From: Bdellovibrio sp. NC01
GTDB taxonomy: Bacteria > Bdellovibrionota > Bdellovibrionia > Bdellovibrionales > Bdellovibrionaceae
Direction: 5' to 3'
Assembly (NCBI RefSeq): GCF_006874625.1
Contig: NZ_CP030034.1
Location: 124,001-188,000, forward strand
Length of the DNA: 64,000 bases
The stretch's first letter is position 1, and each line of letters opens with the position of its first letter. The notes under the pieces are model-generated. The model did not search any database. It had not been told where the DNA came from and was given only the letters and a program-made list of their open reading frames with translations. Made by a program: the position numbers and the translations under genes. Positions 51,612-60,633 of this stretch are shown here, piece after piece.

Positions 51612-51640
51612 TTGACTCTGGTTTTCATTATACCTAGACT
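51612..51640 (+). promoter_or_regulatory. Putative sigma-70 promoter of mreB
   Basis: TTGACT (51612-51617), 17-base spacer, TAGACT (51635-51640), 55 bases before the mreB ATG. The -10 TAGACT is the same as in the lpoB promoter candidate at 62568. Confidence 0.65.
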
Positions 51641-51682: not shown

Positions 51683-52738
<1,056 letters not shown>

Positions 52739-52749
52739 TATCTTAACAT

Positions 52750-53220
52750 ATGAACGAAGCTGACATTCAATCGATCGCACTCTTTTTTTACTTTGCACTT
52801 CTTGATGATAAAAAGGCGATCGAAGCTTCGACTCAGGCTCTAGCCGTTTGTCTAGATAAGAAAAAACGAAATCCCGAATTAAAAAACTCAGTCGCTTTGG
52901 TTTCTGCAACTAAGGCGGTATGGGACAAGTTCAAAGTGCGTGTAGCACGTGGACGTCCTAACACTTCCGTCGAATCTGGCTGGCTTGTTCCCGAAGGTGT
53001 CGATCTAGGCCCTTGGCGTGAATTTCAGAAGACTGCTTCTGAAGACGAGCTTTTAACAGTCATTTGGTCTAAAATTTTAAAAATTGATGATCAGGATATT
53101 TCAGAGGGGCTCGGGATCACATCAGGGACGATTCGCTATCGTCTTGGTAGGTCTTTGCGCAAACTCGGAACAATGACCCAAGGTGTGAGTAAACAGAAGC
53201 ATGGCGCAGCAGGAAAATAA
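52750..53220 (+). CDS. Sigma-70 region 4-containing, ECF-like protein
   Basis: A 156-residue protein. The C-terminal 45 residues, from EDELLTVIWSKILKI through the helix-turn-helix in DISEGLGITSGTIRYRLGRS, match sigma region 4 of ECF factors. The N-terminal 40 residues (QSIALFFYFALLDDKKAIEA) may be a remnant of region 2; the -10 recognition helices are not evident. So it may be a divergent ECF sigma factor or a regulator derived from one. Its stop lies inside the start of the next gene, an anti-sigma-like protein (20-base overlap), supporting the pairing. Confidence 0.68.
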   Translation: MNEADIQSIALFFYFALLDDKKAIEASTQALAVCLDKKKRNPELKNSVALVSATKAVWDKFKVRVARGRPNTSVESGWLVPEGVDLGPWREFQKTASEDELLTVIWSKILKIDDQDISEGLGITSGTIRYRLGRSLRKLGTMTQGVSKQKHGAAGK

Positions 53221-54190
53221 AATTCCCCTCTCAAAAAAGAACAAAAGGGAGATTTCTCCTTTTATTGGTCATGAGCTTTTGTACGACTACCTTTCAGGTA
53301 TGCTCGATGAAGAGCGTAAATCTGCAGTCGAAGATCACGTTAAATTCTCACGTGATGCTCAATTAGATCTTAATAAAATTCAAAACGGTGAAGCTTACGC
53401 GAATCAATTGTCTAGCACCGTTGTTTCACAACCTATCATTGAACAAATCAACACGACGTCTACTTACCTAACGACATTGATGCAAAAATCGAATTTCGAT
53501 AAGTGGCCTCAAGGTTTGAAATGGGGTCTGGAAGCATTGGTTGTTGTCGCAGTGATCGTTGTGCTTCTGACAGTGGCACCATGGCAAAAAGTTTTGAACA
53601 TGGGCATTTCTTCTGGTCAGAAGGAAGTTGTTTTAGCTGAAGTTTCAAAACCTGAAACAGCAACGAATCCTATCGAAGAAAAACCGCAGTTCGTGGATGA
53701 AGATGCGAAGACAGCGAAACCTTTAGTGACGCCAACACCAGCGCCTTCAAAAGCGGATACTGCAAAAGTGGCGGCAGCTGCTGCGGTACCTGCGGCGAAA
53801 GTGGCGACTCCGACTCCGTCACCAACTCCAGCAGTTGTTGCGAAAAAGGATAAAGAGAAAGAAAAAGACGAAACACAAGCTGCAACGGGTGGCGGTGGTT
53901 TCCTTTATCGTGGCGAAATCGATGTGACGAACTTGGCAGTGGTTGGTCCAAAAATCACAGACAAGATCGTAGAGCTTGGTGGTCGTAAAGCCGGTGGCGT
54001 GGAACTTGGTTGGCAGAAAACGACGAACTCTATGTATTATCACTTCACTATTCCAGAGGCGAAATACCAAGACCTGCAAACATTCCTTGCGACTTACGGT
54101 AAAGCGCATATCTCTAAAGAAAAACATCCGCGTGTTATGCCTGACGGAATCATTCGTTTGATTCTGACTGTGGATGAAGCGAAAAAGTGA
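53201..54190 (+). CDS. Anti-sigma-like single-pass membrane protein
   Basis: A 329-residue protein. The cytoplasmic N-terminus has the layout of a zf-HC2 anti-sigma domain (ELLYDYLSGMLDEERKSAVE then DHVKFS and an Asn/Gln-rich helix), but the zinc cysteines are absent. A membrane segment follows (about residues 110-126), then a Pro/Ala/Lys-rich linker (about 150-225) and a C-terminal periplasmic domain of about 95 residues that looks like DUF4349 (TIPEAKYQDLQTFLATYGKA). It overlaps the sigma-like gene (20 bases) and the kinase gene (4 bases). Confidence 0.7.
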   Translation: MAQQENKIPLSKKNKREISPFIGHELLYDYLSGMLDEERKSAVEDHVKFSRDAQLDLNKIQNGEAYANQLSSTVVSQPIIEQINTTSTYLTTLMQKSNFDKWPQGLKWGLEALVVVAVIVVLLTVAPWQKVLNMGISSGQKEVVLAEVSKPETATNPIEEKPQFVDEDAKTAKPLVTPTPAPSKADTAKVAAAAAVPAAKVATPTPSPTPAVVAKKDKEKEKDETQAATGGGGFLYRGEIDVTNLAVVGPKITDKIVELGGRKAGGVELGWQKTTNSMYYHFTIPEAKYQDLQTFLATYGKAHISKEKHPRVMPDGIIRLILTVDEAKK

Positions 54191-56154
54191 AAACTCTAAG
54201 GCGTAAACCTAAAAGATCATTACGCACGATCCTTATCGTATGGTTCGTGCTCTTTTCGGTTGTGCCGTTGGCTTTCGTCACTATCTATTCGATGGTGAAG
54301 TACGAAAAAGCCATCGACCATGAGCTTTCGCAACGTCTTAGCGGTAACGCCCGCGAAATCGGAATTATTCTTAACGACTACAAATCTTCGCTTCAACAAA
54401 AGCGCGATCGCTATGTGCGCGATCCAAGTCTGACTTATCACTTAACGATGGGTGACGGGACGACATTAAGAAGTATTTCTTCGACATGGTTAAAGGCTGA
54501 CAATATTTCAAGTCTGACGTTCTTTGATCGTGAAGGTCGAATGCTGACGTCTGTATTTAAAGATGACAAAGACAATGTTCGCAGTTTCTTGCCAGTACAA
54601 GATGCTGTGTTCCTGTCAGCGAAATATATTTCCGACTTAAAAGATGAAAAAGAAATCAGTCTTGCCGAATTCACTGAAAGCCAGAAGCTTAACTTGATTC
54701 TGATTTCTAAAGTGACGGGACCCGGTGGCAGAACTGTTGGTTACATCGAGCAGATCGTTGATCTTAATAAAGAGTTTCTTTCTAAGCTTAAAAGTCGTTT
54801 GAAGTTGGAACTGATTCTTTTCAAAGACAACGGCCAAGTGGTTGTCGCCAGTCACCCAGATTTCTATTTGTATAAAAAAGATTTTTTCAAAGGCTATTTC
54901 CGCCCGGGTGCTGAGCCATTTTTTGACTTAAACGTGCGCGGTAATCCTTACGGCTTCCTGATTTATCCATTGGATTGGGGTATCACAAAATTTTACGTAG
55001 CACTGGGCGCTTCAAAAAGTGAAGCGATCGCAGTTCTTAAAAACGTAAACTATGCATTTATCACTGTCGTGGGCGCAGTCGTTGTTCTGTTGATCATGAC
55101 AATTCTTGTGACATCAAGCTGGGTATTGAAGCCATTGTATGACTTGGTCGACGCTCTTCAATCGTTTGAATCACAAGAACAAGCCGTTACGATTCCAGTA
55201 AAAAATGACACTGAAATTGGTCTTCTAACGGAATCGTTTAATGAAATGAGTAAAAAGATTTGGACAGCAAGATCGGATCTGCGCAAAAAGATCACGGAAC
55301 TTGAATCTGCCAATAAGGAACTCAAAGACACGCAAACGAAACTTGTTCACTCTGCTAAAATGGTCAGTCTTGGTCAGTTGGTTGCTGGTGTTGCGCATGA
55401 ATTGAATAATCCAATTGGTTTCATTTATAGCAATATGACTCATCTTAAAGAGTATTCGGAAAAACTGATCGCGATTGCTGAAGTGGCTGAAAAAAATCCA
55501 GAGAAATTGCACGAGATCAAAGAAGAATACGAATTCGATTACATCGTTAAAGATTTGCCAAAACTTGTGACATCTTGCCAAGATGGTGCGCGTAGAACTC
55601 GCGATATTGTTTTGGGCTTGCGTAACTTCTCGCGCTTGGAAGAAGCAAAGCTGCAAGAGATCGATGTTCATCAAAGCTTGGATACCACATTGAATCTTCT
55701 GCAAGGAGAGATCAAAAATCGTATCGAGTTGCACAGACAGTATGAGCCGACTCCGTTGGTGCACTGTTATGCTTCGCAGATCAATCAGGTGTTCATGAAT
55801 ATCTTATCGAATGCGGTGCAAGCGATCGAAGGTAACGGACACGTATGGATTTCAACGATGGCGTTGAAGGATTATAAAGGTTCGAAAGATAAAACGGGTT
55901 GGGTGCAAGTCTCAATTCAAGACAGTGGTAAGGGCATGAGCCAAGAAACTTTGGATAAAATCTTCGATCCATTCTTCACGACTAAAGGCGTGGGGCAGGG
56001 CACAGGTCTAGGTCTTTCTATCTCTTATGGTATTGTTCAGAACCACGGTGGTGAAATTCAAGTGCGTTCACAAGTGGGCGTAGGCACTGAGTTTATTGTA
56101 ATTATCCCGGTTTATCCTCCGGTCCAGGACAAGGCTACCCAACTAATGTCCTAA
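54187..56154 (+). CDS. Sensor histidine kinase with extracytoplasmic sensor domain
   Basis: A 655-residue protein with GTG start. Membrane segment at about residues 14-36, a large periplasmic sensor (Cache-like) to about residue 290, a second membrane segment, a HAMP domain, a coiled coil, and the kinase core: H-box with H404 in [17 protein letters not shown]-box [17 protein letters not shown]1 [13 protein letters not shown]-box [11 protein letters not shown] and G2 [13 protein letters not shown] follows residue 310. No response regulator is adjacent. It overlaps the anti-sigma-like gene by four bases, so the three genes share a message. Confidence 0.92.
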
Positions 56155-56185: not shown

Positions 56186-56410
56186 ATGAAAGCTGTTATC
56201 GTTATCCTCACGTTTCTTGCTTCGAACTTCTGTTCTGCCAATGACTCGAAACCTTTATATCTTGCCGGGGTCGTTCCTTACCGCGGTGATGTGAAAGTGT
56301 CGGTCGATTCAAAAGGTAAATTTCACGCGCAACAGATGGCTCCTGATAAACTGCAAATTCAAGTTCAAAAACGCGGACCCGCTTCAGTAATTACTGCCTC
56401 GGCTCCGTAA
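56186..56410 (+). CDS. Small exported protein, unknown function
   Basis: A 74-residue protein with a signal peptide (residues 1-18, cleavage after CSA). The 56-residue mature chain is polar with no cysteines. It starts 31 bases after the kinase stop behind AGGAAG and ends before a strong terminator, so it may be the last gene of the mreB-sigma run. Confidence 0.6.
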   Translation: MKAVIVILTFLASNFCSANDSKPLYLAGVVPYRGDVKVSVDSKGKFHAQQMAPDKLQIQVQKRGPASVITASAP

Positions 56411-56440: not shown

Positions 56441-56472
56441 AAAAAACCCTGTTGCTTAGCACAGGGTTTTTT
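56441..56472. terminator. Terminator after the kinase operon
   Basis: Perfect 12-bp stem AAAAAACCCTGT / ACAGGGTTTTTT with loop TGCTTAGC. Usable in both directions. Confidence 0.92.
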
Positions 56473-56567: not shown

Positions 56568-57302
56568 ATGTATTCATTCGTGAAAAACACCTCAATTTCA
56601 TTCGCAGTTCTTCTTCTTCCGCTGTTTTCATATGCGTTCAAAATTTCTCCGATGGTGATTTACTTTTCACCTGCTGGAAATAAAGCAACGCAGGTATTAA
56701 CTCTGGAAAATCCGGGCAACGAAAAAACTCCTGTGCAAATCGAAATGTTCACGCGTGCGATTGATGCTAAAGGTGAGGAAGTTCGCGAAAAAACGACGGA
56801 CTTCAACGTTTATCCTGAACAAGTCGTGTTGTTGCCGAATGAAAAAAGAAATGTGCGTGTGACTTTCGCCGGCACAGTGAAAGACGATACCGAGAAATCA
56901 TATCGTTTGATCGCTTCGCAAATTCCTGTCGAATTCAAAGAAAGTAACGCTGGTACAAAAAAGCCTGGTGTGAATTTGAATTTCCTTTTGCAGTATGTGG
57001 CTTCTGTTTATGTCACTCCGGATAAAGCTGTCGCTAAAGTAAAAGTGAAAGACGCCAAGGTGCTTCCTGGAAAAAAGTTAGAAATTACTTTTGCTAACGA
57101 AGGCACGGCTCATAAAGTTCTACATCCAAAACTTATTAAAATTAAATCGGGTACGACGACAGTTCTTGAAATCAAAGAACCTAAAGAGTTAGACGGAACA
57201 AATCTTCTGGCGAAAACTGAAAAGAAAGTTGTTTTGCCAGTGTCTAAAGATCTGCCGAAGAATGTGAAAGTCGAAATGGAACTAGCGGAGATCGCTGATT
57301 GA
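56568..57302 (+). CDS. Periplasmic pilus chaperone (PapD-like, archaic type)
   Basis: A 244-residue protein with signal peptide (cleavage after SYA). The N-terminal Ig-like domain has the pattern FKISPMVIYFSPAGNKATQV and VLTLENPGNEKTPVQIEM; FNVYPEQVVLLPNEKRNVRV is the chaperone G1/F region that donates a strand to pilin subunits. It is followed directly by the usher gene with four-base overlap. Confidence 0.88.
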   Translation: MYSFVKNTSISFAVLLLPLFSYAFKISPMVIYFSPAGNKATQVLTLENPGNEKTPVQIEMFTRAIDAKGEEVREKTTDFNVYPEQVVLLPNEKRNVRVTFAGTVKDDTEKSYRLIASQIPVEFKESNAGTKKPGVNLNFLLQYVASVYVTPDKAVAKVKVKDAKVLPGKKLEITFANEGTAHKVLHPKLIKIKSGTTTVLEIKEPKELDGTNLLAKTEKKVVLPVSKDLPKNVKVEMELAEIAD

Positions 57303-59710
57303 GGAATTTCTTACTTACTATCTTCGCAGTACTTTTCTGTGTAAATAGCTTTGCGGCGGGAACTCGTCCACCGCTGGCCAAACCTTTTGTGGTTGTTCCG
57401 ATCGTTCTTGACGGTGCGACATCAGAGGAAGCTTGGGTTTTCCCTCGCGATACGGCTCGTGCCTTTTCTATTGAAGCGGCCCCGCTGATTCAAGTTCTGC
57501 AACTGCAAATGAAAGAAGAGATACTGAATAATCTTAAAACGCACATTACGCCTGAAGGTGTTTTGTCGTTAAAAGATTTGCAAGCGTCGGGTGTCGGTGT
57601 TGAGTTTGATGAAGCTGCCCTGGAACTTCGTTTGAAGTTGCCTTTGAAATATCGTCGCAGTAACGAAGTCGAACTTTATACTAACAGCGATGGCACGCAG
57701 AAATATATTCGTCCTACCCAACAAAGCGGTTACTTGAATTTGCGTTTCAACCAGTCATATCAATACGGTGACGACGTTGAAAACAAAATGTTGCCGCTAA
57801 CTGGTCACGTCGATTTCGTCGAAAATATTCACGGCCTGGTGTTTGAATCAATGGCCGATTATCTAGAACATGAAGAGCATCCGTGGAAACGCGGGGATAC
57901 GCGTTTCCGTTATGACGATGAAGAAAAGATGATTCGTTATACAGCGGGTGATCTGACTTTGATGTCACGGGGATTTCAACTTGTGCCTGCAATGGCCGGG
58001 CTGTCAGTTGTTCGTGAATTCGGTATTCAACCGTATCGTACTCTTCGCCCATTAAGTAACACGGAAATCGTGATCAAGCGTCCTTCGCAAGTTGAAGTGT
58101 ATGTGAATGGTTTCATGTACAGTCAAATGCGTTTGGCACCGGGTATTTTCAATATTCGTGAATTTCCGTTGGCATTGGGTCAGAATAACGTGAAGGTCAA
58201 GGTTCGCGACGATCTGGGACAAGAAGAGGTTTTCGACTTTTCGGTTCTATTCGAAAATACAATTCTGACAAAAGGGGAGCAGGAGTTTTCATACAGCGGT
58301 GGCGCCCCGTGGACTGAGTCAGGCGGCGATCGCGCCTATGAGGCACACAACGTTCTGACGAATATGTTTCATCGTGTCGGTGTGACTGACGAGCTGACTG
58401 TCGGCGTGAATTTTCAAAACTATCAATCGCAGGCATTAACTGGCGTCGAAGCTTCCGGCATTACAAGTTATGGATACCTTTCCGCAGATGTGGGTTACTC
58501 TTCACACTCGAGTGATGTTCGTGGTTATGCAGAAAAGTATCGTTATCGTACCTTGGATCGTATGGGTGGTAAGGACATGCCAGCGACTTTGACCCTCGAG
58601 GCAGAAAATCACGATCCTGACTTTGCTCCGGTCTCTGCGAATATTTTTGTGCCGACAAATTATCTTCGTCGTTACGATGCGCAGTTAAACTTTCGCCCCT
58701 GGGCTTATTGGACATTGGGTGTTGGCGGTGGCTATTTAGAACAGGTCAATCAACCCGATCAACGCATGTACCGCGCAAACATTGTGATTCCATTTGCGGT
58801 GAACTGTCGTCTAGAGCTCAGTTACAATAAAGTCGTCGACGCGAATAACGAAGATCGTGGTTACGTGTCCTTCTTCTGGAATGAATTACAAGGGCACTAC
58901 AGCGCAAGTTCATTTTATGATTCTGGCAACAAAAGTACGAACGTTACGTTCAATAAAAACAATCTTTATAAATACGATGATTTCAGAGCGTCCGTTTCCG
59001 TACAAAATGCCAAAGATTCAACCCAAGAAAGTTTGAGTGCTGAATACTACACTCAACCGGCAAGTTATCGTTTGGATCATTACTCGACTCAAACAGGTGG
59101 TTTATCAAGCAACATCACGAGTGTTGGTATCAATACCGGTTTTGCTTGGGTGGGAACGCACGGTGCTTTCACGCAGCCAATTTCGGATAGCTTCGTCTTA
59201 GTTGCCGCAAATAATTTCCCTGATGGCCAAGAGATGATGATCAATCCAAATGGTGAAAAAGGTGAAGCGCAATTGGGTCCGCGTTCATCAGCTGTGTTGA
59301 AAGACGAAACGGCATATTACAAATATCTGGTTAACATGGATTCAACGTCGTTGCCGCCAGGGTATTTGTTGGAAAAAGAATACTATGCCGTTCAACCTAC
59401 TTACCGCAGCGGTATCCTAATCCCATTGAACTTCAAACATAAAGTCATGGTGAAAGGCCGCCTAATCAATGAAAAAGGCGAAGCTTTGCAATACGCTGCG
59501 GGTGATGTCGTCGATTCACAAGGTCGCCTCGTGGATAATAGCTTCTTCACAAATAAAGAAGGTGGCTTCTTGATCGAAGGATTGGAACCGGGCGAATATA
59601 AAATCGCAACGGATCGTCCTGAATTGTCTTCTGTCATCATTCAAGTTCCAGCTGGAAAAGAAAGCCTTATTAACCTAGGCACAATCAAGGTTAAAAAAGG
59701 AGGTGAGTAA
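57299..59710 (+). CDS. Outer-membrane fimbrial usher
   Basis: An 803-residue protein with TTG start and signal peptide (cleavage after SFA). Layout: N-terminal chaperone-binding domain, a beta-barrel with a plug-like segment (RPLSNTEIVIKRPSQVEVYV, NGFMYSQMRLAPGIFNIREF), and a C-terminal domain with a carboxypeptidase-regulatory-like fold (KGRLINEKGEALQYAAGDVV, EGLEPGEYKIAT). It exports and polymerises pilus subunits. It overlaps the chaperone by four bases and the tip gene by one. Confidence 0.9.
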   Translation: MRNFLLTIFAVLFCVNSFAAGTRPPLAKPFVVVPIVLDGATSEEAWVFPRDTARAFSIEAAPLIQVLQLQMKEEILNNLKTHITPEGVLSLKDLQASGVGVEFDEAALELRLKLPLKYRRSNEVELYTNSDGTQKYIRPTQQSGYLNLRFNQSYQYGDDVENKMLPLTGHVDFVENIHGLVFESMADYLEHEEHPWKRGDTRFRYDDEEKMIRYTAGDLTLMSRGFQLVPAMAGLSVVREFGIQPYRTLRPLSNTEIVIKRPSQVEVYVNGFMYSQMRLAPGIFNIREFPLALGQNNVKVKVRDDLGQEEVFDFSVLFENTILTKGEQEFSYSGGAPWTESGGDRAYEAHNVLTNMFHRVGVTDELTVGVNFQNYQSQALTGVEASGITSYGYLSADVGYSSHSSDVRGYAEKYRYRTLDRMGGKDMPATLTLEAENHDPDFAPVSANIFVPTNYLRRYDAQLNFRPWAYWTLGVGGGYLEQVNQPDQRMYRANIVIPFAVNCRLELSYNKVVDANNEDRGYVSFFWNELQGHYSASSFYDSGNKSTNVTFNKNNLYKYDDFRASVSVQNAKDSTQESLSAEYYTQPASYRLDHYSTQTGGLSSNITSVGINTGFAWVGTHGAFTQPISDSFVLVAANNFPDGQEMMINPNGEKGEAQLGPRSSAVLKDETAYYKYLVNMDSTSLPPGYLLEKEYYAVQPTYRSGILIPLNFKHKVMVKGRLINEKGEALQYAAGDVVDSQGRLVDNSFFTNKEGGFLIEGLEPGEYKIATDRPELSSVIIQVPAGKESLINLGTIKVKKGGE

Positions 59711-60633
59711 TGAAACTACTTATTGGTTCATTACTGACATTGACCGTCCTGTTGATTTCTCACTTATCGCAAGCAGCAGATTGCACAAACATGCAGTTGC
59801 AGACGGGACAAACGAATATTGATTTCACGAGCAATCAAAACTTCCAAGGATCGTTCACTGTAAAAGCGAACACGATGCCTGGCGGTTGTGATTTCTTTAT
59901 GACTTTCGATTACGGTCTTGCGACCTCATACGCAAATCGCACACTCAAGATGGGTGTATATTCTTGGCCTTATCAAATCTCGAAAGATTCTGCGGGTATT
60001 AACATTCTAAAGAATCTTTTTGATGCTTCAACCAACAACGATGTGATTTCCGGAACATTGGCAGAGGGTAATAACGATCGCCAAGTGAACGTGAATTACT
60101 GGGCGATTTTAAATATGTCGAACCCGTGGTTGCGCTTTGGTAACTACAACGACTATATGACCGTCACTTTATATCGTGGCAATCTGAGTAGTTATACTTA
60201 CGCCGATTCGCGTTTGATCTCTTTGAGCTTCAATGCGCCTAAGCGTGTTGACGTTTCGATGCAGTCAACAGGCGGTACATTTGTGCTGGGCGATTTAGAT
60301 GAAGTTATGGATTTCGGAAATCTAACGGCCGGTGCGACGAAAAGTGCAGAAGCTATTCTGAAATACAATGCCGGTTACACGTTGTCAGTTTCTTCGACGA
60401 ATGGTGGTCGCTTAAAACATTCAACAGATGCCGTTTATATTCCATACTCGATCCGCTTTAATGGATCATTGGTGAATTTAACGACGTCACCACAGCAGAT
60501 TTATCGAGTCTTCGGCGTGTCACCTACGACGGGCACGACGATTCCAATCTCGGTCACGATTGGAAACTTCGGGACTGTGAAGTCGGGAAGTTATAGCGAT
60601 CAAGTTCAGCTTACAATCGAAACGACAGAATAA
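59710..60633 (+). CDS. Spore coat U-type (SCPU) two-domain pilus tip subunit
   Basis: A 307-residue protein with signal peptide (cleavage after SQA). The first 160 residues contain two cysteines and differ from the pilin; the last 130 are a SCPU/pilin-like domain (GYTLSVSSTNGGRLKHST and SGSYSDQVQLTI). This two-domain layout is that of CsuE-type tip adhesins in archaic chaperone-usher pili. It is the last gene of the operon and a terminator follows. Confidence 0.82.
   Translation: MKLLIGSLLTLTVLLISHLSQAADCTNMQLQTGQTNIDFTSNQNFQGSFTVKANTMPGGCDFFMTFDYGLATSYANRTLKMGVYSWPYQISKDSAGINILKNLFDASTNNDVISGTLAEGNNDRQVNVNYWAILNMSNPWLRFGNYNDYMTVTLYRGNLSSYTYADSRLISLSFNAPKRVDVSMQSTGGTFVLGDLDEVMDFGNLTAGATKSAEAILKYNAGYTLSVSSTNGGRLKHSTDAVYIPYSIRFNGSLVNLTTSPQQIYRVFGVSPTTGTTIPISVTIGNFGTVKSGSYSDQVQLTIETTE

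Follow-up and report, generated by a model that had tools for sequence, protein, structure and literature searches.

A candidate sigma/anti-sigma pair encoded directly behind mreB in Bdellovibrio sp. NC01 and across the order Bdellovibrionales

Gene arrangement at the mreB locus

In Bdellovibrio sp. NC01, the first of two mreB copies is followed on the same strand by genes for a 156-residue sigma-like protein, a 329-residue anti-sigma-like membrane protein and a sensor histidine kinase. A gap of 11 bases separates mreB from the sigma-like gene, and the three genes behind it are joined by overlaps of 20 and 4 bases. They lie within a 64,000-nucleotide stretch of contig NZ_CP030034.1 (positions 124,001 to 188,000), which is the window of this work and to which the coordinates in Table 1 refer. 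An earlier note, made from the letters of this stretch, had recorded the same open reading frames (ORFs) and overlaps, and both were recovered here. The reading favoured in this work, with modest confidence, is that the 156- and 329-residue proteins form a sigma/anti-sigma pair derived from the extracytoplasmic function (ECF) sigmas, with periplasmic sensing that is probably shared with the kinase. The pair is real and ancient, and is probably functional. It is an overlooked, order-wide candidate, directly behind one of two mreB genes.

With a sigma70-type promoter 5' of mreB and a terminator-like hairpin behind a fifth ORF of 74 residues, mreB, the kinase gene, the genes between them and this ORF are probably transcribed together. 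Hairpins followed by a T-run are no more numerous in the region than in shuffled sequence. The 74-residue ORF starts 31 bases 3' of the kinase gene, and matches to it were found only in loci of the genus (L099, L100 and L103). The genes mreC and mreD, which the earlier note had listed as missing, are indeed absent from this locus but not from the genome, whose single contig measures 3.98 Mb. The other mreB, 49% identical to the window copy, lies at 1.675 Mb, and mreC, mreD, pbp2 and rodA form one cluster at 2.54 Mb (mreC identified by Pfam, the other three by ORF reading). Given this cluster, the elongation machinery is complete as judged by gene content, with its genes merely split.

Table 1. 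Features of the mreB operon in the window and regions of the two middle proteins (nucleotide positions are those of the window; residue numbers are those of each protein)
Feature	Position	Strand	Basis
Sigma70-type operon promoter, TTGACT-N17-TAGACT	51612..51640	+	consensus scan
mreB (MreB, 347 residues; first of two mreB copies)	51695..52738	+	Pfam MreB_Mbl 6.4e-153
ECF-derived sigma-like gene, 156 residues	52750..53220	+	fold model; hhalign; Pfam region 4 in relatives
Sigma-like protein, degenerate region 2	residues ~3-64
Sigma-like protein, linker	residues 65-86
Sigma-like protein, region 4	residues 87-150
Sigma-like protein, recognition helix GTIRYR, intact	residues 126-131
Membrane anti-sigma-like gene, 329 residues	53201..54190	+	zf-HC2 below cut-off; AlphaFold2; VIA
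Anti-sigma-like protein, anti-sigma-type domain free of zinc ligands	residues 19-75
Anti-sigma-like protein, transmembrane helix	residues 104-125
Anti-sigma-like protein, linker	residues ~140-230
Anti-sigma-like protein, periplasmic domain	residues 232-327
Sensor histidine kinase, 655 residues, GTG start	54187..56154	+	Pfam HATPase_c, HAMP, HisKA
Small exported-looking protein, 74 residues; possible last operon gene in the genus	56186..56410	+	ORF
Intrinsic-terminator-like hairpin, 12-pair stem and T-run; likely operon end	56441..56472	+

The sigma-like protein

The 156-residue protein was modelled by AlphaFold2 with high confidence (pLDDT 90.2, pTM 0.84) and is predicted to adopt the two-domain sigma2-sigma4 ECF fold in its anti-sigma-bound shape. 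A VIA search with residues 1–147 placed the B. quintana RpoE/NepR structure closest (5uxx; Z 14.6, 139 residues, 2.8 Å), followed by SigW/RsiW (5wur; Z 14.4, 129 residues, 2.1 Å), with PhyR structures at Z 8–12 and unrelated helical proteins at about 7. Foldseek concurred with an ECF sigma fold (TM 0.68–0.70, probability 1.0, E 0.0035), and hhalign matched the sigma-like family to the ECF sigmas of the phylum over columns 9–145 (97.1%, E 7e-11). Against PDB sequences, phmmer with the protein itself returned zero matches, and the family profile reached ECF sigmas at E 0.12–0.4 only, level with noise. The sigma fold, on which the earlier note had let its proposal depend, is thus supported by the model and its structural neighbours.

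By sequence, Pfam Sigma70_r4_2 was recognized in 28 of 40 relatives (best 4.8e-7), the window protein itself being below the Pfam cut-off. Sigma70_r2 matched none of the 40 at E 0.1, nor was the 156-residue protein among the seven region-2 hits of its genome. The claim that only region 4 is kept therefore stands for the sequence and fails for the fold model, where region 2 is present as a three-helix domain from which the sequence marks have gone. As both domains of the model superpose on ECF sigmas, region 2 is read as eroded and not missing. Given the failed region-2 sequence test, the protein is called ECF-derived and sigma-like here and is not filed as an ECF sigma, and the weakness of region 2 suggests a specialized or helper role, not that of a normal ECF sigma.

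No other stretch of the protein is kept as well as the recognition helix. Among the 40 alignment members, G126 and R131 are each present in 40, T127 in 39 and R129 in 36, while in the relatives encoded as separate chains (n = 80, near relatives included) R131 is found in 80, G126 in 79 and T127 in 75. The ratio of nonsynonymous to synonymous change (pN/pS) of the gene is 0.14–0.36, with synonymous change near saturation, which indicates purifying selection. The chain ends after region 4, without a C-terminal receiver domain of the PhyR type.

The anti-sigma-like membrane protein

The N-terminal domain of the 329-residue protein is helical and confidently modelled. Its first VIA match was MucA in complex with AlgU (8z6g; Z 6.3, 53 residues, 2.2 Å), its second RslA in complex with SigL (3hug; Z 6.0), and RskA scored lower (4.5). 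Pfam zf-HC2 was found in 8 of 38 members (best 0.0008) and lay below the cut-off for the window protein. These weak Z values were counted as evidence because the gene context and the sub-threshold zf-HC2 match agree with them. As described earlier, the zf-HC2-like part contains no zinc cysteines, a frequent state, as the zinc motif is missing from about 44% of class I domains (PMC7406223). The gene is encoded directly behind the sigma-like gene and overlaps it, and the product has a hydrophobic helix, both as in class I anti-sigmas.

Behind the membrane helix, a disordered linker rich in Pro and Ala leads to an alpha/beta periplasmic domain, which is confident in the AlphaFold2 model and is the best conserved part of the protein. 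The earlier proposal of a DUF4349-like periplasmic end was not borne out beyond a faint likeness: DUF4349 (PF14257) matched 2 of 38 members at best E 0.0019 and exceeded the Pfam cut-off in none of 97 genomes of the phylum, and a literature search found nothing joining DUF4349 and anti-sigma. Only weak alpha/beta structural neighbours of the domain were found, such as the XcpY periplasmic domain (Z 5.6). With the whole 329-residue model, Foldseek returned nothing significant, and a profile of the protein gave one chance match among PDB sequences. Likenesses to PCMT and GltJ were discarded as weak, the matched stretch being the membrane helix and the low-complexity linker.

Conservation of the gene order

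Of 60 related genomes, 55 have the sigma-like gene and 56 the anti-sigma-like gene, each in single copy; the two are neighbours and lie directly 3' of the closest mreB. In a synteny survey of mreB loci, the complete order mreB, sigma-like, anti-sigma-like, histidine kinase was present in 34 of the 40 Bdellovibrionales loci read, and in two more of these the middle pair was fused. A scan of named genomes yielded 52 loci of identical order, whose titles nearly all point to Bdellovibrionales or kin. In 17 outgroup loci, by contrast, mreB had none of the three genes nearby. The four-gene order is far beyond chance, and its retention in the loci of the order, together with its absence beside the outgroup mreB genes, makes the linkage to mreB an old trait of the Bdellovibrionales. 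The linkage persists across at least ten families despite changed flanking genes.

The departures from this order are informative. Family f6 (three genomes) and genome G133 have lost the sigma/anti-sigma pair and retained mreB and the kinase, so that the pair is not required for MreB function. In three reduced genomes of family f4, the sigma-like gene is accompanied by an anti-sigma shortened to the cytoplasmic domain and membrane helix, and the kinase is either undetected (G039, G211) or strongly diverged (G149). Genome G037 retains the pair with its periplasmic domain, the kinase again being undetected. In G045, the pair is followed by a kinase-like protein (L084:3868-5733) that keeps the sensor and HAMP and has lost the HisKA and ATPase motifs. 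This gene would encode a pseudokinase, consistent with a part in sensing that is separate from phosphorylation. A strongly reduced relative (L218; G203, 1.2 Mb genome) has kept mreB, with pair and kinase both absent beside it.

Fused sigma/anti-sigma chains

In a clade of family f1, to which Bdellovibrio qaytius (L272) and contigs with Pseudobdellovibrio in their titles belong, the pair forms one ORF of 438–475 codons between mreB and the kinase gene, and a separate fusion case (L073) has 527 codons. These fusions argue that the sigma-like and anti-sigma-like proteins are functionally tied. Outside the order, single-chain relatives without mreB were found at four loci. One of them, L183, matches zf-HC2, carries zinc ligands of the form HxxxCxxC and has a recognizable region 4; its ligands support descent of the family from a zinc-bearing anti-sigma. 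The four ORFs (L183:1395-2888, L190:4322-5623, L191:3736-5058 and L201:3867-5213) each encode an N-terminal helical part that is sigma- or helix-turn-helix-like, a membrane helix and a related periplasmic domain, in gene contexts that hold a glycosyltransferase gene, thiolase genes and aspS. The glycosyltransferase gene adjoins L183 and is peptidoglycan glycosyltransferase-like by ORF reading.

The residue R131, kept in all separate chains, occurs in 0 of 12 fused forms (nine have L, L073 has I, L183 has K and one is not aligned), a comparison that represents few independent events, as the fused forms are mostly one clade and the 80 separate chains include near relatives. Within the order, the aligned residues show a degraded recognition helix in the fused forms. 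Most simply, DNA recognition would persist only in sigma-like proteins that are free to part from their membrane partner. If the pair works as proposed, these relatives would also form a natural series, from separate chains to fused ones, along which to trace what becomes of a DNA-recognition helix.

The same helix bears on whether the sigma-like protein acts in transcription at all. It could instead be a sigma mimic, serving as a decoy or adaptor for the membrane protein, as PhyR binds NepR, or as a membrane scaffold near MreB. Such a role would suit the loss of the region 2 signature in all 40 relatives, the PhyR structures among the neighbours of the model and the retention of the protein in the fused clade despite its degraded −35 recognition helix. 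A pure decoy would not need that helix, however, and it is the best kept part of the protein in all separate-chain relatives; a PhyR-like receiver domain is also absent. A mimic is accordingly regarded as unlikely, and a sigma-like protein that recognizes DNA is preferred.

The histidine kinase and covariation between domains

The description of the fourth gene as a full sensor kinase held up. Its product matches HATPase_c (8.2e-25) and HAMP (4.7e-7) over the Pfam cut-off and HisKA slightly under it (4.2e-5), with the H-, N- and G-boxes readable in the sequence. The layout begins with a periplasmic dCache-like sensor, followed by HAMP, HisKA and HATPase_c; dCache_3 was matched in the relative L087 at 3e-5, below the cut-off. 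No response regulator gene adjoins the window kinase.

Covariation was calculated from domain distances in 48 loci after removal of the share common to all other operon domains, with significance from Mantel permutation. The sigma-like protein covaries with the anti-sigma domain (r 0.47, p 0.0005), and the periplasmic domain with the kinase sensor (r 0.31, p 0.0005). Alongside the fusions, the first of these values is indirect evidence that the sigma-like and anti-sigma-like proteins interact, the other point on which the earlier note had let its proposal depend. Values for the sigma-like protein and periplasmic domain (0.07), the anti-sigma domain and kinase sensor (0.06) and the periplasmic domain and kinase catalytic part (−0.09) were not significant, and the two parts of the anti-sigma protein itself reached just 0.19. 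For MreB the values are modest: 0.25 against the sigma-like protein, 0.27 against the periplasmic domain and 0.24 against the kinase catalytic part. Covariation tracks the cellular compartments, as would be expected if sigma touches anti-sigma in the cytoplasm and the anti-sigma meets the kinase sensor in the periplasm.

Shared sensing has a competitor in which the operon holds two independent units, the sigma/anti-sigma pair and a conventional kinase whose response regulator is encoded far away, and in which the periplasmic domain and the kinase sensor never meet. The catalytic motifs of the window kinase are intact, the kinase stays with mreB in f6 and G133 where the pair is lost, and G037 keeps the pair and periplasmic domain with no kinase detected, all of which such independence would predict. 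It would not predict the covariation that links the periplasmic domain to the sensor, but not to the catalytic part, once shared history is removed, nor that the f4 anti-sigmas without a periplasmic domain coincide with undetected or strongly diverged kinases. The retention of sensor and HAMP at L084 after loss of the catalytic motifs likewise stands against it. Two independent units are therefore considered a possible but somewhat doubtful explanation, and sensing shared between the anti-sigma-like protein and the kinase remains preferred.

The promoter and the link to mreB

Of 73 distinct regions upstream of mreB, 52 contain the pattern TTGAC(T/C/A), 15 to 18 bases, TANA(C/A)T, where shuffled sequence would lead one to expect 0.18. 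The extended pattern has a single match in the genome at up to 2 mismatches, and a regulon that shares it was therefore rejected. Across about 70 loci, the mreB promoter has a T-rich start to its spacer and often TAAATATCTGCA immediately 5', a conservation unusually deep for a promoter. The promoter is sigma70-like, and a version of it is retained in f6, which lacks the pair. Transcription of the operon thus most likely depends on the housekeeping sigma, not on the sigma-like protein that the second gene encodes. For the same two reasons, autoregulation of the ECF type is unsupported.

The link between the pair and MreB is one of very stable gene order and a shared sigma70-type promoter. It could reflect expression level only, the pair exploiting a strong, growth-linked promoter with no relation to cell shape. 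The conserved sigma70-like promoter, the lack of any domain that points to MreB and the absence of the pair beside mreB in the 17 outgroup loci would all agree with this, but the linkage has outlived changes of flanking genes across the families, and the distant single chain of L183 also stands in a cell-wall context, next to its peptidoglycan glycosyltransferase gene. An explanation by expression alone is for these reasons held to be rather unlikely, if less so than a sigma mimic. A role as a sensor of cell shape or of the prey wall is drawn from the gene linkage only. Both MreB proteins of B. bacteriovorus are reported to be essential (PMC6985089), which makes the locus important.

Proposed mechanism and comparison with known systems

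The pair is supported by the predicted folds, the gene order, the fusions, the selection on the recognition helix and the covariation; from these we infer binding, release, action on DNA, joint sensing and a role at the envelope or in cell shape. In the mechanism proposed, the 329-residue protein would hold the sigma-like protein at the inner membrane through its zinc-free anti-sigma domain, in the closed shape of the model. Its C-terminal domain would read a periplasmic event, probably together with the dCache-like sensor of the kinase, and the signal would free the sigma-like protein. Once freed, this protein could bind DNA of the −35 type and perhaps RNA polymerase, as a weak or specialized sigma or as a region-4-type regulator, and the kinase would signal to a distant response regulator. 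Because the set would be made from the mreB promoter, its dosage would follow that of the elongation machinery. In its most elaborate form, the operon would be a four-part envelope sensor on the mreB transcript, in which kinase and anti-sigma share a periplasmic unit, one signal enters a phosphorelay and also reaches a sigma-like regulator attuned to cell elongation, and the sigma part of the fused clade is a tethered element without a −35 recognition helix. This full version is speculative and improbable as a whole. If the reading of the pair is true, the locus would give concrete access to the way in which a predator growing within another cell couples the elongation of its wall to envelope sensing.

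Several observations weigh against the pair as proposed. Region 2 has no Pfam match among the relatives, and no DxxQ-like core-binding motif stands out as conserved in the columns where region 2.2 would lie. The structural matches of the anti-sigma domain reach Z values of only about 6. The domain pairs that covary most strongly are also encoded next to each other, and recombination or local effects could contribute to their covariation. Finally, ECF sigmas usually regulate their own genes, of which the sigma70-like operon promoter gives no indication, and family f6, having lost the pair, still has TTGACTC...TAATCT.

The pair resembles AlgU/MucA, SigW/RsiW and RpoE/RseA in the predicted two-domain sigma fold with a region-4 recognition helix and in a partner encoded alongside it that crosses the membrane once, with a putative helical anti-sigma domain at the N-terminus and its C-terminal part in the periplasm. 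It differs from them in a region 2 without sequence signature, a promoter that is not ECF-like, its fixed place between mreB and a histidine kinase and another periplasmic domain. Fused sigma/anti-sigma proteins are known from ECF48, ECF52 (SCO4117) and ECF53 of Actinobacteria and from IutY (ECF243) of Pseudomonas putida (PMC8999054, PMC5826349). Some relatives found here are likewise single chains (sigma-like part, anti-sigma, membrane helix, linker, periplasmic domain), whereas the window has two genes, the fused clade of the order has a degraded −35 recognition helix and the sensor domain is different. With PhyR/NepR/EcfG, the pair shares a sigma-like fold of changed function and the company of histidine kinases, but its sigma-like protein has no receiver and its partner is an anti-sigma-like membrane protein, not the small soluble NepR.

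Within the genus, the accessible part of an account of B. bacteriovorus HD100 describes two group IV sigmas, Bd0743 and Bd0881, as homologous to E. coli RpoE and without a co-encoded anti-sigma (PMC3464611). Both are ECF-type sigmas, and as described there they are unlike the window protein in their recognizable RpoE homology and in having no co-encoded anti-sigma. That part of the account mentions neither a third group IV sigma nor the window pair. Literature searches under guessed HD100 locus tags for these genes found nothing, and the locus is not mentioned in the accessible main text of the transposon-sequencing (Tn-seq) paper.

Two metagenome-bin contigs titled Natrialbaceae archaeon (L251, whole, 3499 bases) and Streptomyces griseus (L239, 1-4449) carry operon genes of the Bdellovibrionales, with mreB in L239 and without it in L251. 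The domain scores of L251 are the same as those of L253, from a related sample series, and both contigs are most likely mis-binned. In the window, chaperone-like, usher-like and secreted-protein genes forming a cluster of the chaperone-usher pilus type (56568-60633) lie 3' of the operon, an adjacency kept in parts of the genus.

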